The position numbers and the translations under genes are program-made. Positions 6,381-28,744 of a DNA stretch of 32,128 nucleotides are shown here, one piece after another. The DNA is from Bacteroidota bacterium. GTDB taxonomy: Bacteria > Bacteroidota > Bacteroidia > Bacteroidales > UBA10428. The stretch is taken from the NCBI GenBank assembly GCA_003252385.1, contig QKEH01000110.1, positions 1 to 32,128 of the forward strand, given 5' to 3'. A model generated the notes under the pieces. It searched no databases and was not told the DNA's origin. It saw only the letters and a list, made by a program, of their open reading frames with translations. Numbering within the stretch: the stretch's first letter is position 1; every line of letters begins with the position of its first letter.

Positions 6381-8371
<1,991 letters not shown>

Positions 8372-8380
8372 TTCAACGTT

Positions 8381-8992
8381 GTGGAACTGATCTTACATAC
8401 CACGGAACATTTTTTTGAGGGTGAAGCCGAAATAATTAGCCGGTTGATGGAGGCATTCCAGTTTACCCTGCACCTGCGAAAACCTCAGGCAACCTGCGGG
8501 GAGTATCGTGCTTTGCTAAAAGCCCTGCCGGAGTCCATGCATCACCGGATTATGCTGCACGAGGCCTATGAGCTGGCTGAGGAATTCCCTTTGAAGGGGC
8601 TGCACTTTTCGGCTCGGAAACAGGTTTTAGCCAGGCACTTTCCGGAGGTGTTCAAGAGCACTTCGGCTCACAGTCTCGAGGAATTATCGGCTTTGCAATG
8701 TGAGTACAACTACATATTTTTGGGGCCTGTTTTTCCGAGTATCTCCAAATCGGGTTATTCCGGTACTCTGGAGCACGATCGGGTTGGCGAATTTTTGAAA
8801 ACGGCTTCCGGTGGCAGGGTGATGGCTATTGGAGGTATAGCACTCGACACCCTGGAGGCGGTTCGTACCTTGGGATTTCATGGTGTAGCCGTTTTAGGAA
8901 GTGTATGGGGCAATCAACCCGGGGAGGCCAATCGGGTTTTCGAAAACTTTAAAAAAATATACCAATGCATACATGCCGTCCCTACTGTTTAA
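8381..8992 (+). CDS. ThiE/TenI-family protein, probably TenI-like
   Basis: 203-aa TIM-barrel protein of the ThiE/TenI superfamily. The family frame is present: GPVF (115-118), SISKSGY, and AIGGI (149-153). The canonical ThiE phosphate/pyrimidine motifs are not: TLHLRK replaces QLR.K, IMLHEAYELA replaces INDRVDLA, and GLHFSARK replaces GVHLGQ.D. His97 in STSAHSLEEL aligns with the catalytic His of Bacillus TenI, the thiazole tautomerase that aromatises the ThiG product. A complete ThiE lies two genes downstream, so I infer a tautomerase or other auxiliary role rather than a second coupling enzyme. Start is GTG 8381, 9 nt after thiC. The gene overlaps thiD by 28 nt. A weak ThiE activity cannot be excluded. 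Confidence 0.75.
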   Translation: MELILHTTEHFFEGEAEIISRLMEAFQFTLHLRKPQATCGEYRALLKALPESMHHRIMLHEAYELAEEFPLKGLHFSARKQVLARHFPEVFKSTSAHSLEELSALQCEYNYIFLGPVFPSISKSGYSGTLEHDRVGEFLKTASGGRVMAIGGIALDTLEAVRTLGFHGVAVLGSVWGNQPGEANRVFENFKKIYQCIHAVPTV

Positions 8993-9678
8993 GCATTGCA
9001 GGTTTCGACCCCTGCGGGGGCGCTGGCATACTGGCTGATATTAAGACCTTCGAGCAGCTGGGGGTTTATGGTTTGGGTGTTTGTACGGCAGTTACCTATC
9101 AGAACGATACCCGATTTGAAGGCCTCCATTGGCTGGAAGCCGATGAAATACGTCGGCAGCTGGAAGCCTTGGCAGTATACGATGTTCAAGTGGTGAAAAT
9201 TGGCATCGTTGAAAATATAGAGCGATTGGAAGCTATTGTAAACTGGGTGGAAGGACTTTTCGCCGGTTGCCGCATCATTTGGGATCCTATCCTGAAGGCT
9301 TCGGCGGGCTTCAGTTTTCATTCTGCATTAAAATTAGATATCAGGCTGCTCAAACGCTTGTATCTTATCACGCCCAATCGAGAAGAATACGAACTGCTCG
9401 GACTGGATCGTTTCAGGGAACTACCTGTTTTGTTAAAGGGAGGCCATCGGGAAGAAAAGGGGGTAGATACCCTGTTCACTTTGGGTAAGGCTAAGGATAT
9501 ACCCGGAAAGCCTTTTTCTGAAACCGATAGTAAGCACGGTACCGGATGTGTGCTCTCGGCGGCTATTGCTGCCAACCTTGCACAGGGCAGTAAGCTGTTG
9601 GCTGCCTGTAAACAGGCCAAACACTATGTAGAGTCTTTTATGAAATCGAACCCCTTAAACCTGGGCTACCACGCATGA
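8965..9678 (+). CDS. thiD: Hydroxymethylpyrimidine/phosphomethylpyrimidine kinase ThiD
   Basis: Phosphorylates HMP-phosphate, the ThiC product, to the diphosphate used by ThiE. 237-aa ribokinase-fold protein. The N-terminal SIAGFDPCGGAGILADIKTF is a close match to the family SGSD..GGAGIQAD..T motif, with the Ser-Asp pair changed to AGFD. LITPNREEYELL is the usual TPN block. KHGTGC (190-195) is the anion-hole/catalytic motif. It is slightly shorter than the usual 255-270 aa. It overlaps the upstream TenI-like gene by 28 nt and the downstream thiE by 4 nt (ATGA), which indicates translational coupling. Confidence 0.93.
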   Translation: MHTCRPYCLSIAGFDPCGGAGILADIKTFEQLGVYGLGVCTAVTYQNDTRFEGLHWLEADEIRRQLEALAVYDVQVVKIGIVENIERLEAIVNWVEGLFAGCRIIWDPILKASAGFSFHSALKLDIRLLKRLYLITPNREEYELLGLDRFRELPVLLKGGHREEKGVDTLFTLGKAKDIPGKPFSETDSKHGTGCVLSAAIAANLAQGSKLLAACKQAKHYVESFMKSNPLNLGYHA

Positions 9679-10289
9679 TTGCAATACCCGATATCTACTA
9701 TATTACCCGCAACGATGCTCGCTATTCGCACGCCGAACAGGCACAACTGATGTTTAGCAGGGGCGTGGAGTGGGTACAACTCCGGATGAAGGATTACCCG
9801 CCGGAAGAAGTGCTTCGGCAGGCGCTGAAGGCTATGGAATTTGCCACCAGATACAGGCGGAAATTGTTCATCAACGATTCGGTGGAACTCGCTCTGGAGG
9901 TGAAGGCGCACGGGGTGCATTTGGGGCTGAAGGATACCCCGGTGGATGCCGCCCGGATCCGCCTGGGAAGCGGATACCTGTTGGGAGCTACTGCCAACAC
10001 CCTGGAAGATATCCGGTTGCAGGCTGCTCGCGGAGCCGACTATGTTGGATTGGGACCCTTTCGGTTTACCACCACCAAGAAGAACCTCAGCCCGGTAATC
10101 GGGTTGGAAGGATACCGGAGCCTGGTCAGTCAGGTGCGGCAACTGCAAATAGACATTCCCCTGGTAGCAGTGGGAGGCATTGAGATGAACGATATCGAAG
10201 CCATACGGGCTGCCGGAATGCAGGGAGTGGCCATTTCCGGGTCTTTATGGGCACATTATATGGAACATAGTAGAATGGAAGAAATATGA
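9675..10289 (+). CDS. thiE: Thiamine-phosphate synthase ThiE
   Basis: Joins HMP diphosphate and thiazole phosphate to give thiamine phosphate. 204 aa with every canonical motif: QLRMK (35-39), INDSVELA (66-73), GVHLGLKD (80-87), [12 protein letters not shown] (125-136) and VAVGGI. This is the complete ThiE of the operon, in contrast to the diverged paralogue at 8381. It overlaps thiD and thiG by 4 nt (ATGA) at each end, consistent with coupled translation. Confidence 0.95.
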
Positions 10290-11062
10290 AGGATTTGTGC
10301 ATAGCGGGTAAAATCTTTACTTCGCGGCTTTTTCTAGGTACGGGCAAGTTTAGCTCCAATACCGAAATGCAGGCGGCGGTCAGCGCTTCGGGAAGCCAGC
10401 TGGTAACCGTGGCTCTCAAACGGGTGAATAGGACCGACCCCAACGATGATTTGTTAAGTCACCTGGTATTGCCCGGCGTGAACCTGCTGCCGAATACTTC
10501 GGGGGTGCGTAATGCGCGCGAGGCGGTTTTTGCTGCCCAGTTGGCTCGCGAGGCGCTGGAAACCGACTGGCTGAAACTGGAGATACATCCCGATCCCAAA
10601 TACCTGCTTCCCGATGGGGAGGAAACCCTCAAAGCGGCGGAAGAATTGGTAAAGCTCGGATTTAAGGTACTGCCATACGTGCAGGCCGATCCGGTACTGT
10701 GTAAGAAACTCGAAGCCGTAGGCACGGCAGCCGTAATGCCATTGGGAGCACCTATTGGAACCAATAATGGTCTTCGTACGCTCGACTTTCTTCAAATTAT
10801 CATTGAACAAAGCCAGGTTCCTGTGGTTGTGGATGCCGGATTGGGGGCACCATCGCATGCTGCCTGGGCTATGGAAATTGGTGCCGATGCAGTATTGGTA
10901 AATACGGCTATTGCCGTTTCGCCCCATCCGGTGCAAATGGCAGCTGCCTTCCGAATGGCCGTAGAGGCCGGCCGAATGGCCTTCGAAGCACGACTGGCAG
11001 AACGATCGGTGCATGCCGAGGCCAGCAGTCCACTCACTCTCTTTTTGAATGAGCTGGAATAA
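10286..11062 (+). CDS. thiG: Thiazole synthase ThiG
   Basis: Builds the thiazole phosphate ring from deoxyxylulose 5-phosphate, the ThiS thiocarboxylate and dehydroglycine. 258-aa TIM barrel. Lys97 in WLKLEIHPD is the residue that forms the imine with the sugar substrate. [11 protein letters not shown] and the phosphate-binding [30 protein letters not shown] region are intact. It starts inside the thiE stop (ATGA overlap). ThiH downstream supplies dehydroglycine, as in anaerobes and facultative bacteria, in place of glycine oxidase ThiO. Confidence 0.96.
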
Positions 11063-11109
11063 TAGGGCTGGCGAACGGATTTCATTCATTCTTTATTTGA
11101 GGGGAACGT

Positions 11110-12222
11110 ATGAGCTTTTATGAAGAAATAAAAAAATACAACTGGCAGCAGGTTAGCGAGCAACTGTACCGGAAGACCGGAGCCGATGTAACGCGTGCAC
11201 TGGCCCGGGACAAGCTGACACTGGACGACTTTCAGGCGCTGGTTTCACCTGCCGCCGAGCCTTTTCTGGAACAGATGGCTCAAAAAAGCAGGCAGCTTAC
11301 CCAAAAACGCTTCGGAAAAACCATTCAGATGTACATTCCTTTGTACTTGTCGAATGCCTGTACCAATAGCTGCGTCTATTGTGGCTTCAATCACAGTAAC
11401 CGGTTTGCGCGTACCATACTGAGTCTGGAGGAGGTGCAGGCTGAAGCCCGAAAAATAAAGGAATTGGGCTTTGAACATATTCTTCTGGTTACCGGCGAAG
11501 ACGATAAACGCTGCGGGGTAGACTACCTTGGTCAAATGATGGAATGGCTTCACCAGAGTTTTTCCCTGATATCCATTGAGGTGCAGCCCTTAAAAACATT
11601 GGAATACCAGCAACTTAAAAACCAAGGTTTACATACCGTTTATATCTACCAAGAAACCTATAATGAGGCGAACTACAAAAACTATCATCCATCGGGTCGG
11701 AAATCCAATTACCGATACCGGTTGGAAACGCCCGACCGTTTGGGACAGGCCGGTGTACATAAAATTGGACTGGGTTGTTTGTTAGGTCTCGAAGACTGGC
11801 GGGTTGACTCCTTTTTTACAGCCTTGCATTTGAGTTATCTGGAGAAAAAGTACTGGCAAACCAAATATTCCCTGTCATTTCCCCGCCTGCGTCCGCACGC
11901 CGGAACGTTTACACCCCGCTACCATGTTTCGCAACGCAATTTGGTGCAGTTGATTTGTGCGTACCGTTTGTTTAACGAACAGCTGGAGTTGTCCCTTTCT
12001 ACTCGCGAAGAACCCCGGTTTCGGGATCATATGCTAAAATTGGGGCCGACCTCCTTCAGTGCGGGTTCCAAAACCAATCCGGGGGGGTATTCAGGAGGGA
12101 GCAATACCCTGGAACAGTTCGCAGTACACGACGATCGCCCGCCAGCTGAAATTGCGCATACCATACGGCAGAATGGCTACGAGGTGGTATGGAAAGATTG
12201 GGATCAGATTATGCAAATGTAA
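11110..12222 (+). CDS. thiH: 2-iminoacetate synthase ThiH (radical SAM tyrosine lyase)
   Basis: Radical SAM enzyme that cleaves tyrosine to dehydroglycine (2-iminoacetate) and p-cresol, feeding ThiG. 370 aa, with the cluster motif Cys84-X3-Cys88-X2-Cys91 (CTNSCVYCGF) and the ThiH-specific IYQETYNEANYKNYHPSG and SFPRLRPHAG stretches. The C-terminal region ends with KTNPGGYSGGSNTLEQF-like sequence, typical of ThiH. Its presence suggests thiazole synthesis that works without oxygen. It lies 47 nt after thiG and 5 nt before the ThiF-like gene. Confidence 0.96.
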   Translation: MSFYEEIKKYNWQQVSEQLYRKTGADVTRALARDKLTLDDFQALVSPAAEPFLEQMAQKSRQLTQKRFGKTIQMYIPLYLSNACTNSCVYCGFNHSNRFARTILSLEEVQAEARKIKELGFEHILLVTGEDDKRCGVDYLGQMMEWLHQSFSLISIEVQPLKTLEYQQLKNQGLHTVYIYQETYNEANYKNYHPSGRKSNYRYRLETPDRLGQAGVHKIGLGCLLGLEDWRVDSFFTALHLSYLEKKYWQTKYSLSFPRLRPHAGTFTPRYHVSQRNLVQLICAYRLFNEQLELSLSTREEPRFRDHMLKLGPTSFSAGSKTNPGGYSGGSNTLEQFAVHDDRPPAEIAHTIRQNGYEVVWKDWDQIMQM

Positions 12223-12227
12223 AGCTT

Positions 12228-12926
12228 ATGAATGAGAAACAACGAGAACGTTACAGCCGGCATACCCTGCTGGCTCAGATAGGAGAGGAAGGACAACAAA
12301 AGCTTCTTGATGCCCGTGTCTTGGTAATAGGCGCTGGCGGGCTTGGTGCCCCGATAATTCAGTACCTGATGGCCGCAGGCGTTGGAACGCTCGGCATTGT
12401 GGATGCCGATGTGGTAAGCCTTTCCAATTTGCAACGCCAGGTGTTGTATCGCGAAGATCAGTTGGGGCAGCCAAAAACCGAAATGCTGCGTGCCACCATG
12501 GCGCATTTGAATTCGGATGTTAAGCTGATCACTTACCCGTTTTGGCTCATCGAAAGCAATGTCTGCGAGATAGTTGCCGGGTACGATATGGTTGTGGGGG
12601 CTACCGATAATTTTGCTTCGCGCCGCTGTATCGACCGGGTCACCCGGGAGCAGGGGAAACCCTTTATACACGGTTCCATTGGTGAGTTCGAGGGTCAGGT
12701 GAGTGTTTTTAATTTTCAGGGAGGTATTTCCTATAGCGAGCTTTTTCCGGACACCCCTGATGAAAAGCTGCTACCCAAAGGTGTTATGGGGGTATTGCCC
12801 GGTATAATAGGCAGTTTGCAAGCCTGCGAGGTAATTAAAATTGTGGTTGGCATAGGTGAGGTGTTAAGCGGAAAGCTTCTGGTATACAATGCCCTTACCT
12901 GCGAAATGCGGAAATTCGAACTTTGA
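12228..12926 (+). CDS. thiF: ThiF/MoeB-family adenylyltransferase lacking Cys motifs
   Basis: By context this enzyme activates the ThiS C-terminal glycine as acyl-adenylate. From ATG 12228 it has 232 aa; the same frame opens at 12189 inside thiH, but the 12228 start (MNEKQRERYSRHTLL) fits the family and follows the thiH stop by 5 nt. E1-like features are present: RYSRH, nucleotide loop VIGAGGLGAP, D-D (VDADVVSLSNLQRQ) and GATDNFASRR. The two CxxC zinc-binding pairs of E. coli ThiF/MoeB are absent (ISYSELFP where YRCLFP is usual, and no C-terminal CxxC). The region of the catalytic Cys184 reads LLPKGVMGVLPG. The protein can plausibly adenylate ThiS, but sulfur transfer must differ from the E. 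coli scheme. Confidence 0.85.
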   Translation: MNEKQRERYSRHTLLAQIGEEGQQKLLDARVLVIGAGGLGAPIIQYLMAAGVGTLGIVDADVVSLSNLQRQVLYREDQLGQPKTEMLRATMAHLNSDVKLITYPFWLIESNVCEIVAGYDMVVGATDNFASRRCIDRVTREQGKPFIHGSIGEFEGQVSVFNFQGGISYSELFPDTPDEKLLPKGVMGVLPGIIGSLQACEVIKIVVGIGEVLSGKLLVYNALTCEMRKFEL

Positions 12927-13121
12927 CACAGGGGGTTTCTTACAGATTCGGTATCTGTAACAGTGTGTTTTTATGCCAGATAACTTCGGTGAAACGGCAC
13001 TATCCGGTAACCATTACCATTTTTCGCAAATATTTTGTATATTCCAAAGTACACCGGAGTGTAAGCAGGTGGTATACGCTGAAGACGCACCGGAAAATAC
13101 CAAACCAACCATCTATTGCCC

Positions 13122-13475
13122 ATGAACCCGAAAAGAGTATGCCCGGTGTGCGGGGATCCGATACTGGGGCGTATCGACAAGAAGTTTTGCAGCGATCAGT
13201 GCCGTTCCGATCACAACAATCTTCGGAACCGCGATACCAATCATGTGGTGCGTCGAATAAACGGAGTATTGCGAAAGAACCGCAGGATACTGGAGGAACT
13301 TAACCCCGATGGCAAAATTAAAATTGCCCGTCAGCAACTCAGTTCGAGGGGCTTCGATTTTAAGCATTTCACCAGTATTTACCGCACAAAAACCGGAAAC
13401 ACCTACTATTTCTGCTACGAACAGGGATATCTGCTGCTAGACGAGACCTATTGTGCTTTGGTGAAAAAGGACTGA
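13122..13475 (+). CDS. Small zinc-ribbon protein of unknown function
   Basis: 117 aa from ATG 13122; a TTG two codons upstream is the only alternative in frame. The N-terminus carries a likely zinc ribbon, Cys7-X2-Cys10-X12-Cys23-X3-Cys27 (CPVCG ... KKFCSDQC), followed by a basic helix (RSDHNNLRNRD, RRINGVLRKNRRIL). A conserved-looking C-terminal half contains YRTKTGNTYYFCYEQGYLLL. The pattern suggests nucleic-acid binding, but I cannot name a function; I recall similar small proteins in Bacteroidota. It stands alone after the thiamine operon (195-nt gap). Its stop lies 2 nt from the stop of the convergent protease gene. Confidence 0.75.
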   Translation: MNPKRVCPVCGDPILGRIDKKFCSDQCRSDHNNLRNRDTNHVVRRINGVLRKNRRILEELNPDGKIKIARQQLSSRGFDFKHFTSIYRTKTGNTYYFCYEQGYLLLDETYCALVKKD

Positions 13476-22036: not shown

Positions 22037-22224
22037 TATCCGGCCGGCTCTATCATGATGCATGTTTTTTAGGTCCGGTAAAGACTACAAATGAACGAGG
22101 CTTCCGGGATGGACGGGTTAACCAATAGGCGCAAGGGGTACATGCAGGCCTCATTCCACGATGAAGAGGAGGGTTCTTAGTAGTGATTTTGCACGAAAGC
22201 AGATGGGAATGCCACCAAAATGTA

Positions 22225-22232
22225 TACATTTG
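22225..22232 (+). promoter_or_regulatory. -7 box of the btu operon promoter
   Basis: TACATTTG matches the TAnnTTTG consensus exactly and lies just ahead of the first cobalamin aptamer. I see no TTTG at the expected distance upstream; the nearest TTTTG (22187-22191) is too far away. Confidence 0.45.
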
Positions 22233-22237
22233 TAGCG

Positions 22238-22425
22238 CTTTGGTGGTACGATCCTTATCAGGATCGACCTTAAAATGGGAATCCGGTGCTCTTCGTTGTA
22301 AGAAATTCCGGAGCTGTACCCGCAGCTGTGAGTCTGTTATCGTTTCGGTATCCTACGCCATTGCCGGGGAAATATTCCCGGTGAGAAGGCACCGGAATCA
22401 GACCAGCCAGAAGACCTGCCAGATC
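22238..22425 (+). promoter_or_regulatory. Cobalamin riboswitch 1 (upstream of btuF)
   Basis: A 7-bp hairpin (22249-22255 / 22260-22266) precedes the aptamer core. The core elements are GGGAATCCGGTG (22278-22289), CCGGAGCTGTACCCGCAGCTGTGA (within 22308-22331, the B12-box helix pair), GAGAAGGCACCGG, and CAGCCAGAAGACCTGCCA (22404-22421). This order is diagnostic of the AdoCbl/cobalamin aptamer. It should lower expression of the transport/adenosylation operon when cobalamin is plentiful. Confidence 0.95.
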
Positions 22426-22661
22426 ATGTAGCTTGAATTCAAACTTCGGGGTGAAGAGTTTGAAAAGTTTCTGCGGTTTCCGATAGTATAACAGGTTTGT
22501 ACAAGGGTACTCTGTAAACGGGAGGTAGCGTTGTAGGCAGGTATGTGCCGTATCGTGTTATGCTTGAAAAACAGCTTGCTCTGAGTCCTTTCTTTATAAA
22601 CCGCATAGAAGCAAGGGCATGAACCCATACGAAACGAAATGTACCAATACGAAACGTACTG
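22426..22661 (+). promoter_or_regulatory. Long leader after riboswitch 1, with direct repeat
   Basis: 236 nt separate the aptamer from btuF. Directly after it, CAAACTTC (22440-22447) can pair with GAAGAGTTTG (22454-22463) with a 2-nt bulge. Just before the start codon, ATACGAAACG occurs twice exactly 20 nt apart (22627-22636, 22647-22656). No T-tract terminator is evident. Tiny open frames (for example 22560-22622, 20 codons) are present but nothing supports their use. Confidence 0.45.
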
Positions 22662-23480
22662 ATGAAGAATACCAAAGTAATTACCACATGCATTCTACTG
22701 GCTTTCCAGGCAGTATTTTTGTTTGGCCAGCCGTATCAGCGGGTGGTTTCGCTGGCGCCTTCAATTACCAAGAACATTTACCAGCTGAATGCACGCCAGA
22801 AACTGGTGGGGTGTACGAACTATTGTTTTCCGGCCAGCGAACAAGGGGTTGCTGTTGTGGCATCGCCGGTGGCTGTAAATCTGGAGCAGGTACTGAGCGT
22901 TCGTCCCGATTTGGTGATGGTTACCACCATCACCAATCCTGAAACGATTGAAATGCTCCGTAAATTGGGTATTCAGGTAGAAGTTTTTTCGACCCCAAAA
23001 AATTTCGACCAAATCTGTGAACAGTATGTGCGTATGGGAAAACTTCTGGGTAAAGAGCAGGAAGCCCTTGTCTATATCGCAGAAGTTACGAAACAGGTCG
23101 AAAGTATTCGGGTTGCCAGCAAAAAGTATCCGCGCGAACGGGTGTTTTTTCAAATTGGAGCCGATCCGTTGTTTACCGTTATTCCCAATACGTTTATGAA
23201 CGATTATATTACCGGCATGAACGGCATCAATATAGCGGCCGGCCAGAGTCGGGGAACCATTACCCGGGAGCGGGTGTTGAGCAGTAACCCCGATCAGATA
23301 TTCATTGTAACCATGGGTATTCTGGGTGCGGAACAACGCGCAGAGTGGCAGGCTTATAAAGAACTTTCAGCAGTTAAAAAAAACAAACTGTTTATTATCG
23401 ATTCGGACATGGCCTGTACGCCAACGCCACAAACATTTTTACAGACCTTACAAACCATGCAACAACTGCTGCATCATTAG
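22662..23480 (+). CDS. btuF: Cobalamin ABC-transporter substrate-binding protein BtuF
   Basis: Periplasmic binding protein of 272 aa that carries cobalamin or a precursor corrinoid to the BtuCD importer. Signal peptide (MKNTKVITTCILLAFQAVFL, cut near FG/QP). The class III solute-binding fold has RVVSLAPSITKNIYQL, where S-L-A-P-S is the BtuF/FecB family hallmark, a long connecting helix in the middle (FDQICEQYVRMGKLLGKEQE), and a C-terminal lobe (NPDQIFIVTMG). There is no lipobox Cys, so it is predicted soluble. First gene of the operon under cobalamin riboswitch 1, 2 nt before the adenosyltransferase gene. The riboswitch makes cobalamin far more likely than siderophore as the ligand. Confidence 0.92.
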   Translation: MKNTKVITTCILLAFQAVFLFGQPYQRVVSLAPSITKNIYQLNARQKLVGCTNYCFPASEQGVAVVASPVAVNLEQVLSVRPDLVMVTTITNPETIEMLRKLGIQVEVFSTPKNFDQICEQYVRMGKLLGKEQEALVYIAEVTKQVESIRVASKKYPRERVFFQIGADPLFTVIPNTFMNDYITGMNGINIAAGQSRGTITRERVLSSNPDQIFIVTMGILGAEQRAEWQAYKELSAVKKNKLFIIDSDMACTPTPQTFLQTLQTMQQLLHH

Positions 23481-23482
23481 GC

Positions 23483-24010
23483 ATGAAAACCGGACTTGTA
23501 CATATCTATACCGGAAACGGCAAAGGAAAAACCACGGCAGCAGTCGGACTCTGTATCCGTGCGCTGGGCTATGGCTGGAAGGTGGGGTTTGTTACTTTCA
23601 ATAAGAATCCGGAAAAGTATGGCTACAAAGAGCTGGAGATTCTACGGAAACTGGGCACCCATGTAATAAGCCTGACCGATGGGCATCCACACTGCGACCC
23701 GGCAGTGGAATGCCAAAAACTGAAACAGGATACTCTTACCGGAATGCACTCTGTTGCCCGGCTGGTTGCAAGCGAATCCTTGCAAATGTTGGTTTTGGAT
23801 GAAGTGCTGATATCCATTCGCGATGGTTTTCTGGACGAAGGCGAACTGATTCAATTTATCCGTAACAAACCACCCCGTTTGGAGTTAATCCTTACCGGGC
23901 GGGGGTGCACCGAAAATCTTGCTAAATTAGCCGACTATCTCAGCAATGTTGAATGTGTGTCGCATCCCTTCAGCAGAGGGATTACCAGCCGGGAAGGCAT
24001 AGAGTGTTAA
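23483..24010 (+). CDS. cobO: Corrinoid adenosyltransferase, CobO/BtuR type
   Basis: Transfers the 5'-deoxyadenosyl group of ATP to reduced cobalt of a corrinoid. 175-aa P-loop protein. GNGKGKTTAAVGLCIRALG (residues 12-30) is the reversed-orientation ATP site specific to this family. VLDEVLISIRDGFLDEGEL is the equivalent of the conserved LDE segment, and ELILTGRGCTENLAKLADYLSNV matches the C-terminal TGR/AD motif. It sits between btuF and btuC, 2 nt from the former and 10 nt from the latter. A second adenosyltransferase of a different fold ends the same operon at 25855. Confidence 0.92.
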   Translation: MKTGLVHIYTGNGKGKTTAAVGLCIRALGYGWKVGFVTFNKNPEKYGYKELEILRKLGTHVISLTDGHPHCDPAVECQKLKQDTLTGMHSVARLVASESLQMLVLDEVLISIRDGFLDEGELIQFIRNKPPRLELILTGRGCTENLAKLADYLSNVECVSHPFSRGITSREGIEC

Positions 24011-24020
24011 AAATGAATTC

Positions 24021-25037
24021 ATGCAAAAGAAACTTTTAGCCCGGTGGGCACTGTACCTGTTAGTAATACTTATCTTACTGGTATTGGCTGCTTTACTTTC
24101 ACTGGCCGTGGGGGAGATTACTATTCGTTTGTCCGATATTCCTGCTGTATTCCGGGCTAAAGAAGGTATGGAATACGTTATACTGACCAAACTTCGGATA
24201 CCTCGCATAGTGCTTGCTATTGCCATTGGTGGTTCTTTGAGTCTGGCAGGAACCCTGTTGCAGGGAATTTATCGCAACCCCTTGGTTGAGCCCTATACTA
24301 TGGGCATATCGGGGGGGGGCGCTTTTGGAGTAGCCATTTGTATCGTGCTGGGACTGCACCTGCGTTGGGGCAGCTACCTGTTGCCTGTTTTTGGTTTTCT
24401 GGGAGCACTTGCTACCATTTTTATGGTGTACACGTTGGGAACCCGTAAATCGCGAGGATTGAGCATCAATCGCATGCTGCTCATCGGAGTGATGATCAGT
24501 TTTATCGCTTCTTCCGGCATGCTCTTTCTGATGGCCTTGTCGTCTACCGAAAGTTTGCACAGCATTATCTTTTGGACTATGGGCTCTCTCAATGAACCGA
24601 ATACCGGTTTAATTGGACTGGTCCTGGTTATCTCCATACTGGGATTGCTGGTCAGTTACGGGTATGTGACACCGCTGAATGCGCTCAGGCTTGGCGAAAC
24701 CAAAGCGCAACACCTGGGGATCAATACCTCTTATACAATCAAAGTGCTTTTTGTAGTAGCCTCGGTAATTACAGGAGTAAGCGTGGCAGTGGCGGGCGTC
24801 ATTGGTTTTGTAGGCCTGGTTATTCCTCATCTGATGCGTAGAATCGTGGGGACTGATTATCGGATCCTGCTCATCAGTTCATTTTTTGGAGGGGCTGTCT
24901 TTATGATGCTGAGCGATCTGTTGGCTCGCACCCTGATAGCACCCAACGAACTGCCAATTGGAGTAATTACTGGTATAGTGGGAGGAGTAATGTTTATTGT
25001 GGCCTTAAGTAGTATGTATTCTAAAACCGAAAGCTAG
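24021..25037 (+). CDS. btuC: Cobalamin ABC-transporter permease BtuC
   Basis: Inner-membrane permease of the FecCD/BtuC family, 338 aa with about ten hydrophobic helices. Characteristic blocks are RIPRIVLAIAIGGSLSLAGTLLQGIYRNPL (split by helix 2), GISGGGAFGVA and AVAGVIGFVGLVIPHLMRRI, the last containing the coupling region that meets BtuD. GVITGIVGGVMFIVAL is the family C-terminus. It lies between the CobO gene and btuD, with only 1 nt before the latter. It should form a dimer with two BtuD subunits and receive ligand from BtuF. Confidence 0.94.
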   Translation: MQKKLLARWALYLLVILILLVLAALLSLAVGEITIRLSDIPAVFRAKEGMEYVILTKLRIPRIVLAIAIGGSLSLAGTLLQGIYRNPLVEPYTMGISGGGAFGVAICIVLGLHLRWGSYLLPVFGFLGALATIFMVYTLGTRKSRGLSINRMLLIGVMISFIASSGMLFLMALSSTESLHSIIFWTMGSLNEPNTGLIGLVLVISILGLLVSYGYVTPLNALRLGETKAQHLGINTSYTIKVLFVVASVITGVSVAVAGVIGFVGLVIPHLMRRIVGTDYRILLISSFFGGAVFMMLSDLLARTLIAPNELPIGVITGIVGGVMFIVALSSMYSKTES

Positions 25038-25038
25038 C

Positions 25039-25842
25039 ATGGACTTTTTGCATTTCAACGCAGCCAGTTATGGGTATGGGAAATCTTTTCATCTGCACGA
25101 GGTGAGTTTTACACTATCCCGTGGCCGGTTTTCGGGGATAATAGGGCCAAACGGTTCCGGAAAAACAACCTTACTAAAAGGAATTTCAGGCGAATTGCTG
25201 GTTGGACGGAATCAGATTTATTTGGATGGTTGCGACATGAGCCGGATGACCGGAAGGGAACGTGCCCGGAAAATTGCCTGTGTTACCCAGTTTGCCGAAT
25301 CAATAGATGTTACGGTGGAAGAATATGTTCTGATGGGGCGCATTCCATACCGCCGCAAGATGCAGGTTTTCGAGACCAGCGAAGATTTCGAAATTGCCGA
25401 AAAGTATATGAAGCTTACCGATGTGTATTCGCTGCGGCATAAAAAATTTTCCAAACTCAGCGGTGGCGAGCAACAACTGGTGAGCATTGCCAAAGCCTTA
25501 ACCCAGGAACCCGATTTATTACTGCTTGATGAGCCCACTTCGCACCTCGATATTATGCATCAGGTTCAGATGCTGAATTTGATTCAGGAGTTGGTTCAGA
25601 AGCTAAATCTTACGGTTCTGATGATTATTCATGATTTGAACCTGGCCAGCGAGTATTGCGATTACCTGGTGTTAATGAGTGAAGGAAGGGTGTTTGACTG
25701 TGGCACTCCCATGGAGATTTTGAACTATAAGAACATTGAAGAGGTTTATAAAACGGTGGTAATCACAGAAACCAACCCGCTTTCGAAAAAACCGGCCATA
25801 TTTTTGGTTTCCGGAAAAGTATTAAACAGTAGGAATGTATAA
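25039..25842 (+). CDS. btuD: Cobalamin ABC-transporter ATPase BtuD
   Basis: ATPase that drives corrinoid import through BtuC. 267 aa with Walker A at about 36-44 (GPNGSGKTT), Q-loop (VTQFAES), ABC signature LSGGEQQLVSIAKAL, Walker B LLLLDEPTSHLD and switch His (IHDLNLAS). The 20 or so residues after the core (NPLSKKPAIFLVSG) are a small extension seen in the FecE/BtuD group. The gene begins 1 nt after the btuC stop, indicating coupled translation. Confidence 0.94.
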   Translation: MDFLHFNAASYGYGKSFHLHEVSFTLSRGRFSGIIGPNGSGKTTLLKGISGELLVGRNQIYLDGCDMSRMTGRERARKIACVTQFAESIDVTVEEYVLMGRIPYRRKMQVFETSEDFEIAEKYMKLTDVYSLRHKKFSKLSGGEQQLVSIAKALTQEPDLLLLDEPTSHLDIMHQVQMLNLIQELVQKLNLTVLMIIHDLNLASEYCDYLVLMSEGRVFDCGTPMEILNYKNIEEVYKTVVITETNPLSKKPAIFLVSGKVLNSRNV

Positions 25843-25854
25843 ACATAACACCCC

Positions 25855-26418
25855 ATGAAAGTTTACACCCGTACCGGAGACAAGGGGCTGACCGGTATTT
25901 TTGGCGGTATGTCCGCTAAAAAGGACGATATCCGCATCGAATGCAATGGAATTCTGGACGAGGCCAATTCGTTTATTGGTTTGCTGCGCTCCAAGCTGGA
26001 ACCGGATCACGCCTGGCAAAAAGGGTTGTTCAAAGTGCAAATGGATCTGATGGATATCATGTCGCATGTGGCTACTCATTCGACCTTGCGATCGAAAAAT
26101 ACCGTTAACCGGCCGGAAGATGGTGAAAAATTTTGTGAAGAGTGGATAGATGCCATGCTGGCTGAAATGCCCGAACCGCACGATTGGTTCATACTACCGG
26201 GCGGAACCGAAATTTCGGCCTTATGCCATGTAGTTCGCACGGTGCTTCGTACCGCCGAGCGAAGGGCGTTTACCCTTAATCAGCAGGATCCGATGGAACC
26301 TTTTATCCTTCGCTACATTAACCGCTTGTCGGATTTGTTTTTTGTGATGGCGCGCTACCAATTGTTTGAGGCCCGTCTTTCTGAAGAAAAAGTCCGCCCG
26401 TTTAAAATGAAGCGTTAG
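25855..26418 (+). CDS. pduO: Corrinoid adenosyltransferase, PduO/MMAB type
   Basis: Second cob(I)alamin adenosyltransferase of the operon, unrelated in fold to CobO. 187 aa, a five-helix bundle expected to trimerise. N-terminal VYTRTGDKGLTGIFGG (residues 3-18) is the ATP-binding signature. IECNGILDEANSFIGLL is the equivalent of E..G.LDE.N...G. RTAERRAFTL is the conserved Arg-rich motif, followed by YINRLSDLFFVMAR. All key segments are present, so activity is plausible. The start ATG is 12 nt after btuD. Having both types may separate adenosylation during uptake or salvage from loading of AdoCbl-dependent enzymes; that split is inference. Confidence 0.93.
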   Translation: MKVYTRTGDKGLTGIFGGMSAKKDDIRIECNGILDEANSFIGLLRSKLEPDHAWQKGLFKVQMDLMDIMSHVATHSTLRSKNTVNRPEDGEKFCEEWIDAMLAEMPEPHDWFILPGGTEISALCHVVRTVLRTAERRAFTLNQQDPMEPFILRYINRLSDLFFVMARYQLFEARLSEEKVRPFKMKR

Positions 26419-26452
26419 TTGCGGTATTCGCAACGGAAAATGAATACCTTTG
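26419..26452 (+). promoter_or_regulatory. Promoter of the DUF4430-cobQ unit
   Basis: TTG (26419-26421) abuts the pduO stop. After 23 nt comes TACCTTTG (26445-26452), an exact TAnnTTTG match. A small dyad, TTGCG-GTAT(T)-CGCAA (26419-26432), lies between them. It would start a separate transcript carrying riboswitch 2. Confidence 0.5.
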
Positions 26453-26489
26453 CCACGATTGGTTTTTTGTCAGGCCATCGTCCGGACAA

Positions 26490-26652
26490 AATGAAAAGGG
26501 AATCCGGTGCTCCTGTTTTCAGGGAAAATCCGGAGCTGTACCCGCAGCTGTAAGTCCAATTTCGATTTTGAATTACCCCGCCACTGTGCAGGTTGAAGGC
26601 CAGCATGGGAAGGCATCAAAATCAGGACAAGCCAGAAGACCTGCCAGTTGTT
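26490..26652 (+). promoter_or_regulatory. Cobalamin riboswitch 2 (upstream of the DUF4430 gene)
   Basis: Complete aptamer core: AAAAGGGAATCCGGTG (26494-26509), CCGGAGCTGTACCCGCAGCTGTAA (within 26530-26553), CCGCCACTGTGC, CATGGGAAGGC (26604-26614), and CAAGCCAGAAGACCTGCCA (26628-26646). It is a second, independent cobalamin sensor 4.2 kb after the first, placing the DUF4430-like protein and CobQ under direct corrinoid control. Confidence 0.96.
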
Positions 26653-26724
26653 GTATTGCCCTGGCTTTCGGGATAAAGGCGGCGTGATTCCTGTTTCTAC
26701 TTTCCCTTAAAGGTTGGTGTCTGG

Positions 26725-26790
26725 TATCCGAAAATATCCTGAAAGATGCAGGAAGCGGGTTGTTAACCCGGTTTTGAATGCGGATATTTT
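26725..26790 (+). promoter_or_regulatory. Expression platform with competing stems
   Basis: CGGATATTTT (26781-26790), 15 nt before the ATG at 26806, can pair over 9 bp with AAAATATCC (26731-26739) or over 6 bp with TATCCG (26725-26730). A smaller stem TCCTG/CAGGA (26737-26741 / 26749-26753) competes for the first partner. CGGGTT-GTT-AACCCG (26756-26770) followed by GTTTT resembles a short terminator. The layout suggests a switch acting on translation start or termination. Confidence 0.5.
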
Positions 26791-26805
26791 AAAACGAAGA
26801 TAGCT

Positions 26806-27219
26806 ATGAAACAAATGACTTTTTGGCTGGGAATCCTGTTCTGTTCAGCAGTGCTGGCTGCCGACCCTGAGGAGGCATCCTTCCTCAAAAATGAATACAC
26901 CGTGCAGATTGATTACAGCGACAGTAAGCAACCCGTAACTCGCAGTTATAGCAGTTCCCGCGATATGTCTGCCCTGGAGGTGCTTATGCATGTGGCCGTT
27001 GTGGAAACCCACCCGGTTTCCGATTTCGTTTTCGTAACATCTATTGATCAGGTGGCTGGTGAACGCGGAAAAACAGCCTGGTACTACAAGGTAAATGGTC
27101 TACCGGCCAAGTTGTTAGCCATGGATAATATCCTTAGTCCGGGCGATACCCTGCAGTGGGTGTATAAAAAGGATGTATGCTCCATTACGGTGGATGGTAA
27201 ATGTAAAATGGCAGAATAA
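26806..27219 (+). CDS. Secreted DUF4430-like protein (transcobalamin C-terminal-like)
   Basis: 137 aa: signal peptide at about 1-19 (cut near VLA/AD) and one small domain. AWYYKVNGLPAKLLAMDNIL-SPGDTLQWVYK resembles DUF4430 (PF14478), in which a WYYYVNG-like motif precedes a DG/GD-I-W strand. This fold is the C-terminal half of animal intrinsic factor and transcobalamin, which caps the bound cobalamin, and it also occurs in bacterial surface proteins. The tail carries Cys pairs (DVCSITVDGKCKMAE) that could form a disulfide or bind metal. No lipobox is seen. It is the first gene after cobalamin riboswitch 2 and lies 37 nt before cobQ, so a role in handling corrinoids outside the inner membrane is a reasonable inference. 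Binding itself is unproven. Confidence 0.72.
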   Translation: MKQMTFWLGILFCSAVLAADPEEASFLKNEYTVQIDYSDSKQPVTRSYSSSRDMSALEVLMHVAVVETHPVSDFVFVTSIDQVAGERGKTAWYYKVNGLPAKLLAMDNILSPGDTLQWVYKKDVCSITVDGKCKMAE

Positions 27220-27256: not shown

Positions 27257-28744
27257 ATGAAGAAATTGCGCCCGATTATGTTTGTCGGCACCGGTTCCGA
27301 TGTGGGTAAATCCATTATCAATGCTGCATTTTGCCGTATCTTTTTACAAGATGGTTACCGACCGGCACCATTTAAGGCTCAAAACATGTCGTTGAACAGT
27401 TATGCCACCCCCGATGGTTTGGAAATTGGCCGGGCACAGGCCATGCAGGCTGAAGCATCGGGCATATCCTGCAGGGTTGAAATGAACCCGGTATTGTTAA
27501 AACCTACCAGCAATACCCAGTCGCAGGTAGTACTTAACGGAAAACCCATAGGCGTTAAAAGTGCTTCGGAATATTTTATGGATACCGACCGGGATGCATT
27601 ATTTCATGAGGCGTTTTCTTCGTTTCGGAAACTTGCCGCCGAATACAATCCGGTGGTTGTGGAAGGGGCAGGGAGTATCTCGGAAATCAATCTATGGGAA
27701 AAGGATATTACCAATATGCGGGTAGCTCTGGAAGCCCGGGCAGCTACTTACCTGATAGCCGATATCGATCGGGGAGGGGTTTTTGGTAGTGTGTACGGCA
27801 CCCTCAAATTACTGCCCCAAGAGCAACTGGATCTGATTGAAGGGATCATCATCAATAAATTCCGCGGCGACATCAACCTTTTTACCCGGGGAAGGCAGCA
27901 GTTGGAAGAGCTTACCGGGAAACCGGTGATTGGGATTATACCGCACTTCCGCGATATTTATATCGAGCAGGAAGATTCCGTGGTTCTGGAGCAGAACCAG
28001 AGGTCGGCGACCTCCGGCAAGATTAATGTTGCGGTTGTGCTATTGCCTCACATGTCGAATTTTACCGATTTTAACAGCCTTCATCATATTCCGGAGGTGC
28101 ATCTGTACTATACGCATCGGGCCAGGGAGTTGGAAAAAGCCGATATCATTCTGCTTCCGGGCTCAAAGAATACCATTGCCGATTTGGAATTTATCCGCAG
28201 TCAGCAGATGGACACGATTATTCAGGAAGCTCACCGGCAGGGGAAACCGGTTTATGGGGTTTGTGGCGGTTATCAGATGATGGGGCAACGCGTATGCGAC
28301 CCGCACCATGTGGAAGGCGATGTGGATGAAGTGAACGGACTGGGCTTGCTGCCGGTAAGTACAATCCTCACCCGGGAGAAAAAAACCGAGCAGGTTGCAT
28401 TCCGTTATCTAACCTTCGAAACCCTTTGTTCAGGCTACGAAATACATATGGGGCAGACCGTGTCTCCATACGAGAATCCGCTCTGTACCATGGAAACGGG
28501 TTCCGATGGCTATTTCTTAAATGCGAAAACCTGGGGAAGTTACATTCACGGTATTTTTGACAATCCGGTCGTGGTTCAGCATATTCTGGAACAAGTACAG
28601 CCGGGTATTCAGGTAGATTTTAATTACAAGGCTTTCAAAGAAAAGGAATTCGACCGGTTAGCAGAGCTGGTAAGAGCTTCGGTGGATATGGAACAGGTGT
28701 ACTCGACACTCGAAAGGGAAGTCATTATTGAAGACAAAGGGTAA
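27257..28744 (+). CDS. cobQ: Adenosylcobyric acid synthase CobQ
   Basis: ATP- and glutamine-dependent amidation of four carboxylates of adenosylcobyrinic acid a,c-diamide to give adenosylcobyric acid. 495 aa from ATG 27257. A longer in-frame start at 27173 would overlap the upstream gene and precede the family N-terminus, so I reject it. The N-terminal dethiobiotin-synthetase-like domain has FVGTGSDVGKSIINAAFC and APFKAQNMSLNSY. The C-terminal type 1 glutamine amidotransferase domain has the nucleophile Cys336 (YGVCGGYQMMG) and His431 (SYIHGIFDN). The substrate is already adenosylated, which fits the adenosyltransferases just upstream. No other cob genes follow in the window. Confidence 0.95.
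   Translation: MKKLRPIMFVGTGSDVGKSIINAAFCRIFLQDGYRPAPFKAQNMSLNSYATPDGLEIGRAQAMQAEASGISCRVEMNPVLLKPTSNTQSQVVLNGKPIGVKSASEYFMDTDRDALFHEAFSSFRKLAAEYNPVVVEGAGSISEINLWEKDITNMRVALEARAATYLIADIDRGGVFGSVYGTLKLLPQEQLDLIEGIIINKFRGDINLFTRGRQQLEELTGKPVIGIIPHFRDIYIEQEDSVVLEQNQRSATSGKINVAVVLLPHMSNFTDFNSLHHIPEVHLYYTHRARELEKADIILLPGSKNTIADLEFIRSQQMDTIIQEAHRQGKPVYGVCGGYQMMGQRVCDPHHVEGDVDEVNGLGLLPVSTILTREKKTEQVAFRYLTFETLCSGYEIHMGQTVSPYENPLCTMETGSDGYFLNAKTWGSYIHGIFDNPVVVQHILEQVQPGIQVDFNYKAFKEKEFDRLAELVRASVDMEQVYSTLEREVIIEDKG

Follow-up and report, generated by a model that had tools for sequence, protein, structure and literature searches.

A cobalamin riboswitch-led, single-domain DUF4430 protein beside cobQ in Bacteroidota, with a predicted transcobalamin beta-like fold

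Known corrinoid binders and transcobalamin-like domains

Transcobalamin-like domains of bacteria were described in 2007 (Burroughs et al. 2007, PMC1796856). In the parts of that paper drawn on here, a beta-grasp whose helix is followed by a hairpin was given as the hallmark of the transcobalamin clade of SLBB; the bacterial forms were mostly secreted, with scavenging of B12 or of B12 precursors as their predicted role, other ligands being allowed after a reviewer's concern; and the animal B12 carriers were proposed as descendants of bacterial secreted proteins. The forms covered there were Gram-positive, planctomycete, and euryarchaeal, often multi-domain, and placed beside CbiO/CbiQ, and the word 'riboswitch' was absent from the text of PMC1796856. 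Among the animal carriers transcobalamin (TC), intrinsic factor (IF), and haptocorrin (HC), the isolated beta domain of human TC (TC-beta) was crystallized with cyanocobalamin and with cobinamide, the alpha domain being absent (PMC5599065, in part), and a paper on rat TC stated, in the portion used here, that binding is possible for isolated domains and that the beta domain is the only one present in some organisms (PMC11107200); a lone beta half can therefore bind, at an affinity below that of the whole carrier.

In Bacteroides, BtuG, BtuH (DUF4465), BtuJ, and BtuK were described as accessory corrinoid binders beside BtuB, encoded in riboswitch-controlled loci, with a propeller in BtuG, jelly-rolls in BtuH and BtuJ, and lipoprotein anchors (excerpts of PMC12751083, PMC8941943, and PMC13398666). 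BtuM of Thiobacillus denitrificans, a transporter embedded in the membrane and similar to ECF S-components, was described with a Cys as axial cobalt ligand on the periplasmic side and with decyanation (PMC6072759, in part). DUF4430 was mentioned in the part of PMC4350170 consulted, the text of PMC8941943 contained neither 'DUF4430' nor 'transcobalamin', and PMC12751083 gave no 'transcobalamin' and no match to 'DUF4430'. The open-licence literature, searched mainly at listing level, yielded neither a paper linking a Bacteroidota DUF4430 protein to B12 uptake nor any functional work on DUF4430 proteins of bacteria. For other lineages, a role of transcobalamin-like bacterial domains in B12 scavenging was already predicted in 2007, as far as the parts of PMC1796856 used here go. 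The literature searched appears not to describe the form found in Bacteroidota, the riboswitch control of this form, or its invariant Cys.

The protein analyzed here was encoded in a 32,128-nt stretch (contig QKEH01000110.1; hereafter the window) of the Bacteroidota genome GCA_003252385.1, a draft of 97.55% completeness in 182 contigs. Compared to the above systems, it displayed the following: (i) a predicted fold with hairpin insert in common with the beta domain of animal TC/IF/HC (5no0, 5np4, 2pmv, and 4kki), but bacterial origin, no alpha/alpha toroid domain (137 aa with DUF4430 alone in Pfam), 12–23% identity to its structural matches (a divergent superfamily), and an invariant D-x-C-S tail behind the final strand; (ii) a single domain and a Bacteroidota host, with its subfamily placed beside btuB/cobU and a riboswitch, unlike the forms in the consulted parts of PMC1796856; (iii) a riboswitch-controlled locus like those of the Bacteroides binders, but neither PF16819 nor PF14717 (Pfam); (iv) no PF01497, the domain of BtuF (Pfam), a separate btuF being present at 22662–23480; and (v) a possible parallel of its Cys to that of BtuM, mechanistic only.

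The DUF4430–cobQ unit, its window, and its host genome

The features of the window referred to below were as follows (all on the + strand).

22224 to 22437, +: second cobalamin riboswitch of the window, preceding btuF-cobO-btuC-btuD-pduO (89 bits)
22662 to 23480, +: btuF-like periplasmic binding protein (PF01497, 93.8 bits)
23483 to 24010, +: cobO/btuR-type corrinoid adenosyltransferase (PF02572, 162 bits)
24021 to 25037, +: btuC-like permease of the FecCD family (PF01032, 288.8 bits; best NCBIfam models BtuC, below cut-off)
25039 to 25842, +: btuD-like ABC ATPase, assigned by position (PF00005, 103.4 bits)
25855 to 26418, +: pduO-type corrinoid adenosyltransferase (PF01923, 176.2 bits; TIGR00636 over cut-off)
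26443 to 26662, +: aptamer of a cobalamin riboswitch (RF00174), preceding the DUF4430–cobQ unit (cmscan, 110.1 bits, E 5.4e-27; gathering threshold 31.5 bits)
26663 to 26805, +: leader from aptamer to start codon, a possible expression platform (repeat search)
26806 to 27219, +: single-domain DUF4430 (transcobalamin beta-like) protein, probably exported, 137 aa (PF14478, 35.9 bits; predicted fold similar to TC/IF/HC)
26806 to 26862, +: probable type I signal peptide, residues 1–19 at most (read by eye from the translation)
27007 to 27015, +: T68-H69-P70, first strand of the hairpin insert (T in 11/11, H in 9/11, and P in 10/11 subfamily members)
27079 to 27087, +: W92-Y93-Y94, invariant in 11/11 members
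27172 to 27183, +: D123-V-C125-S126 tail motif, immediately following the final beta strand (all 11/11 members share D, C, and S)
27257 to 28744, +: cobQ (cobyric acid synthase), following DUF4430 as the second gene (593.8 bits to NCBIfam PRK00784 against a cut-off of 273)

The preliminary description of this region had claimed a secreted DUF4430-like protein as the first gene behind its own cobalamin riboswitch and next to cobQ, and this held, secretion being probable: the ORF started with ATG, the aptamer ended 143 nt upstream of that ATG on the same strand, and the stop codon lay 37 nt upstream of the cobQ ATG at 27257. The DUF4430 match covered residues 55–122 and exceeded the PF14478 cut-off of 23.8 bits (E 1.1e-8); in the genome search it scored 36.6 bits and was the sole PF14478 match of its genome. 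DUF4430 was the only Pfam domain of the protein, Pfam gave no T9SS tail, an NCBIfam search returned no matches, and the strings WYYKVNG and GDTLQWVY reported earlier were both found in the translation. The N-terminus, MKQMTFWLGILFCSAVLA followed by ADPEE, was read by eye as a type I signal peptide, and no lipobox was seen there by eye. The leader contained a perfect 9-bp inverted repeat (26731–26739/26782–26790) enclosing a second stem (26753–26761/26765–26773), and the stretch 26640–26830 folded no better than shuffles (z −0.35).

The whole window genome (G000) contained four cobalamin riboswitches, two of them in the window. The third (contig C150, 59133–59366) was followed (L034:9524–15829) by a gene for a protein with two DUF4465 stretches plus a T9SS tail, then a gene for a 353-aa protein with no Pfam match, as well as a TonB receptor gene and a BtuG-type DUF5074 gene. 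Behind the fourth (contig C150, 37785–37996, − strand) lay an NRDD gene, encoding an anaerobic ribonucleotide reductase, and a radical SAM gene (L033:6593–9680), as would fit a B12-independent enzyme whose use is repressed by B12. Within the window, two unrelated adenosyltransferase genes (CobO/BtuR type at 23483–24010 and PduO type at 25855–26418) shared one co-directional run, and a thiamin run composed of ThiC, ThiE-like, ThiD, ThiE, ThiG, radical SAM/BATS, and ThiF genes was found at 6548–13303, with no TPP riboswitch for it at the Rfam gathering threshold. CobT and CobS had no match in the window genome, a draft in which such genes could be hidden.

Across 23 genomes of the family, cobQ was found in the window genome only (1/23, E≤1e-60), the same distribution as that of DUF4430, and with each gene in 1/23 genomes one gain and repeated loss were indistinguishable. 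The two genes perhaps arrived or persisted jointly, and the unit may be a reduced remnant of a salvage operon. The window CobQ was 59–63% identical to five Bacteroidota CobQ of subfamily loci (see below) and 45% identical to that of L040. The DUF4430 protein gave no match in 72,556 plasmid records and no confirmed match in viral contigs, and a recent horizontal gain of the DUF4430 gene had no support.

The DUF4430 subfamily and its gene context

The PF14478 search was applied to overlapping family, order, and phylum samples, and positive genomes numbered 1/23, 11/295, and 2/395, respectively (the phylum sample including the window genome); among 14 well-known control genomes, two matched (Lactococcus lactis and Methanosarcina acetivorans). 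With the gene in 1/23 family genomes, it could not be a general part of B12 uptake in that family. An association with B12 riboswitches and cob/btu genes in other genomes, on which the preliminary description had staked its case, was borne out: a same-strand cobalamin riboswitch lay ahead of the gene in 9/12 PF14478-positive Bacteroidota genomes (G000, G052, G122, G139, G141, G164, G221, G238, and G305), and 11/11 loci of the subfamily described below lay beside btu/cob genes. The protein of G141 (L032) scored 24.3 bits in the genome search and, as a whole protein, 20.2 bits, which was under the cut-off; leaving G141 out gave 8/11 genomes. Among the remaining positives, the G033 gene began at a contig edge inside a cob gene run, and in G247 and G488 the 8.1 and 20 kb examined contained no cobalamin riboswitch.

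The window protein as a single query found no relative in the genome contig collection and only itself in 99 class genomes, and a four-row profile, built from aligned DUF4430 proteins of the order, was therefore needed to find the subfamily. This profile found ten loci in the contig collection, of which three were contigs of genomes already in hand; with the window added, 11 distinct members were obtained. Profile A1 matched in 6/392 order genomes, four of them with the Cys tail, and the 11-row profile A2 gave no additional member in 198 phylum genomes. A distant relative without the Cys tail (L049 in G842, E 2.9e-9) and a weak hit (L050 in G247, E 2.1e-4) were left out of the counts.

The resulting subfamily was single-domain and sparse, comprising ten Bacteroidota members and one from an Omnitrophota MAG. 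Besides the window, its members were (i) L023/L042, a MAG labelled Porphyromonadaceae; (ii) L026/L043, Natronoflexus pectinivorans; (iii) L027/L044, L035, and L037, MAGs labelled Bacteroidota/Bacteroidetes; (iv) L036, Mangrovibacterium marinum; (v) L038 and L041, Prolixibacteraceae MAGs; (vi) L039, a Paludibacter MAG; and (vii) L040 (L040:8894-9343), a MAG labelled Candidatus Omnitrophota. The window genome and the genomes of L023, L026, and L027 had their order in common; in the NCBI taxonomy, Mangrovibacterium and Natronoflexus were placed in Marinilabiliales and Paludibacter in Bacteroidales, all within Bacteroidota. The L040 contig was probably not a stray Bacteroidota one, since its CobQ was just 45–46% identical to the other six CobQ compared.

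Pairwise identity among the 11 members ranged from 27 to 84% (median 38%), and 12 positions were invariant: L60, T68, V77, W92, Y93, Y94, L104, A105, W118, D123, C125, and S126. The H69 position was His in 9/11 members and Arg or Tyr in two. Both late Cys residues noted in the preliminary description (C125 and C133) were present, but only C125, within the D-x-C-S motif, was conserved (11/11), whereas C133 was private to the window protein. A disulfide between two conserved Cys was rejected accordingly: C133 occurred in the window protein only, and four of the 11 members (L035, L037, L039, and L044) had no Cys besides the C125 equivalent, which made a structural disulfide unlikely and a lone ligand-acting thiol, with cobalt as its possible target, plausible.

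All 11 members adjoined Pfam-identified genes for corrinoid uptake or assembly, the commonest order being riboswitch, btuB-like receptor, (btuG-like), DUF4430, and cobU. Downstream, cobU followed directly in seven loci (L023, L026, L035, L036, L037, L038, and L039), L027 had pduO and then cobU, L040 and L041 had a TonB-dependent receptor gene, and the window had cobQ; cobU, cobT, cobS, and cobQ were kept together in L023, L035, L036, and L038. Upstream, a receptor gene was immediately adjacent in L036, L037, L038, L039, and L041, while L026 and L027 had a receptor gene followed by a PF16819 gene (BtuG-type propeller). L041 also had PF01497 and CobD/CbiB genes as neighbors, and the L040 gene sat between btuFCD-type genes and the TonB receptor gene. 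No CbiO/CbiQ neighbors were noted among the scanned genes of the 11 loci, which had btuFCD-type genes instead.

A same-strand cobalamin riboswitch was found upstream in 8/11 members, six of them clean. In L026, L027, L036, L038, and L041, one or two co-directional genes stood between riboswitch and DUF4430, and only the window member, among the eight with a riboswitch, had DUF4430 as the first gene behind it. L037 (33.6 bits against the 31.5 threshold) and L039 were less clean, each with the riboswitch about 6 kb upstream and a small opposite-strand mechanical ORF in between. The L023 and L035 contigs started 70 and 445 bases before the gene, too close for a riboswitch to be judged, and L040 had none in 8.9 kb upstream. 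With a conserved subfamily of 11 members in cobalamin loci, the observation in the window was not due to chance.

Longer DUF4430 proteins were also encountered. A riboswitch directly preceded one in G122, G141, G221, G238, and G305, and such riboswitch-led proteins (L029:8470-10095, L030:8902-10062, L031:9045-10226, L032:2341-4209, and L025:5683-10071) carried a T9SS sorting tail in 5/5 scanned and up to three domain copies; these T9SS-tailed proteins are likely a surface-displayed branch. The protein encoded by L024:9356-11677 was a fusion of DUF4430 with a PQQ-type propeller and a T9SS tail; its gene belonged to a riboswitch-led run that also included a TonB receptor gene and BtuG-type genes. 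L022:3936-5444 encoded DUF4430 followed by a squalene-cyclase/TED-like toroid region (PF01122 hit below cut-off), i.e., a two-domain transcobalamin-like layout on a bacterial contig, with a second DUF4430 gene adjoining; a sequence search of this protein against the PDB gave only cyclase-type and unrelated hits.

Predicted fold and proposed role

The likeness to the cap domain of animal B12 carriers, proposed earlier, was upheld by structure prediction with AlphaFold2 on two members: the mature window protein (12-row alignment; mean pLDDT 81.6, pTM 0.71) and the Mangrovibacterium marinum member (11-row alignment; mean pLDDT 86.3, pTM 0.77). Both models displayed the order E-E-H-E-E-E-E, i.e., a beta-grasp plus a hairpin insert after the helix (in the window model, helix 37–44 followed by hairpin strands 47–52/55–61). 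With Foldseek, each model had 19 matches in the PDB at E≤0.001, which were exclusively 3u7z or TC/IF/HC and included isolated human TC-beta (5no0/5np4; TM 0.65–0.73 on target). The top match of both models was 3u7z, a Ruminococcus gnavus protein with the PDB title 'putative metal binding', which we take to be a DUF4430 protein. Viral structures gave no matches at E≤0.001, the window protein compared to the PDB by sequence gave nothing convincing (one hit at E 0.53), and the subfamily profile gave no hits against PDB sequences.

The gene product is probably a free-standing soluble periplasmic counterpart of the transcobalamin beta half, which would bind corrinoids entering through BtuB and hold them or hand them to BtuFCD. 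Riboswitches of the cobalamin class give expression under corrinoid shortage, and cobamide shortage would be expected to turn the DUF4430 gene on. The protein would then be exported to the periplasm, between BtuB and BtuFCD, and would bind corrinoids arriving via a BtuB-type receptor, in the window genome probably the TonB receptor encoded at another riboswitch locus, before holding the corrinoid or passing it to BtuFCD for import and salvage.

The strongest of the competing readings, a possible but doubtful one, was that of a specialist for corrinoid precursors, whose ligands would be incomplete corrinoids (derivatives of cobinamide or cobyric acid) instead of cobalamin and which would feed CobU or CobQ. 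It accords with cobU as the next gene in 7/11 loci and cobQ in the window, and in the TC-beta/cobinamide crystal a His takes the place of the lower base (PMC5599065, in part); 9/11 members have a His on the hairpin insert. That crystal His, however, belonged to the tag region of a neighboring molecule, not to the hairpin (same excerpt), the hairpin His was Arg or Tyr in two members, and with no CobT/CobS match the window genome looks incomplete for nucleotide-loop assembly and kept the protein anyway.

Surface or vesicle capture was considered unlikely: the protein would be displayed outside like BtuG, BtuH, and BtuJ and pass corrinoid inward to BtuB, as could be expected from the T9SS tails of 5/5 scanned riboswitch-led DUF4430 proteins of the order (L025, L029, L030, L031, and L032) and from the position of the gene directly after btuB-like plus btuG-like genes in L026 and L027. 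For the window protein, however, inspection by eye revealed no lipobox and Pfam detected no T9SS tail, so that the periplasm was more likely than the surface; among the other members, only L043 had a Cys near the signal end, in no canonical lipobox by eye. A partner of the outer-membrane receptor, capping or regulating BtuB and carrying no corrinoid itself, was improbable: a TonB-dependent receptor gene was adjacent in 6/11 loci (L036 to L041) and lay one gene away in L026 and L027, but the window had no adjacent receptor gene, and the animal proteins of this fold with solved structures are B12 binders. A non-corrinoid ligand such as a metal, suggested by 3u7z topping both structure searches, was very improbable given the cobalamin context of 11/11 loci and the cobalamin riboswitch ahead in 8/11, the title of 3u7z itself being merely 'putative'.

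Returning to the periplasmic corrinoid binder, a lone invariant Cys is unusual for an exported protein, and it may be hypothesized to act as an axial cobalt ligand or a redox thiol. C125 lay one residue before a short predicted helix in the window model and its equivalent C99 began a helix in the M. marinum model; the ten-residue Cys block had a mean pLDDT of 65 and 85, respectively, falling below 50 beyond. By analogy with a haptocorrin passage in PMC11107200, as far as the part consulted goes, the Cys tail would come near the upper face of the corrin. In a tentative and rather unlikely elaboration, the free-standing beta half would bring its own cobalt-seeking thiol: the T-H-P hairpin insert would grip the corrinoid on its lower-ligand side, and the Cys of D-x-C-S would reach the other face of the corrin and ligate cobalt, standing in for the His loop of the alpha domain of animal TC. 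Such a Cys could also remove upper ligands such as cyanide while in the periplasm, BtuM-like, before salvage by CobU or adenosyltransferase.

The DUF4430 subfamily was linked to B12 by three lines, namely predicted fold, riboswitch, and gene context, and two of its members came from named strains that have DSM numbers (Mangrovibacterium marinum and Natronoflexus pectinivorans). The protein is small, and its lone invariant Cys provides a sharp hypothesis. For Bacteroidota, in which corrinoids are modeled to pass from BtuG/BtuB to BtuFCD, the window protein would add a periplasmic binder.
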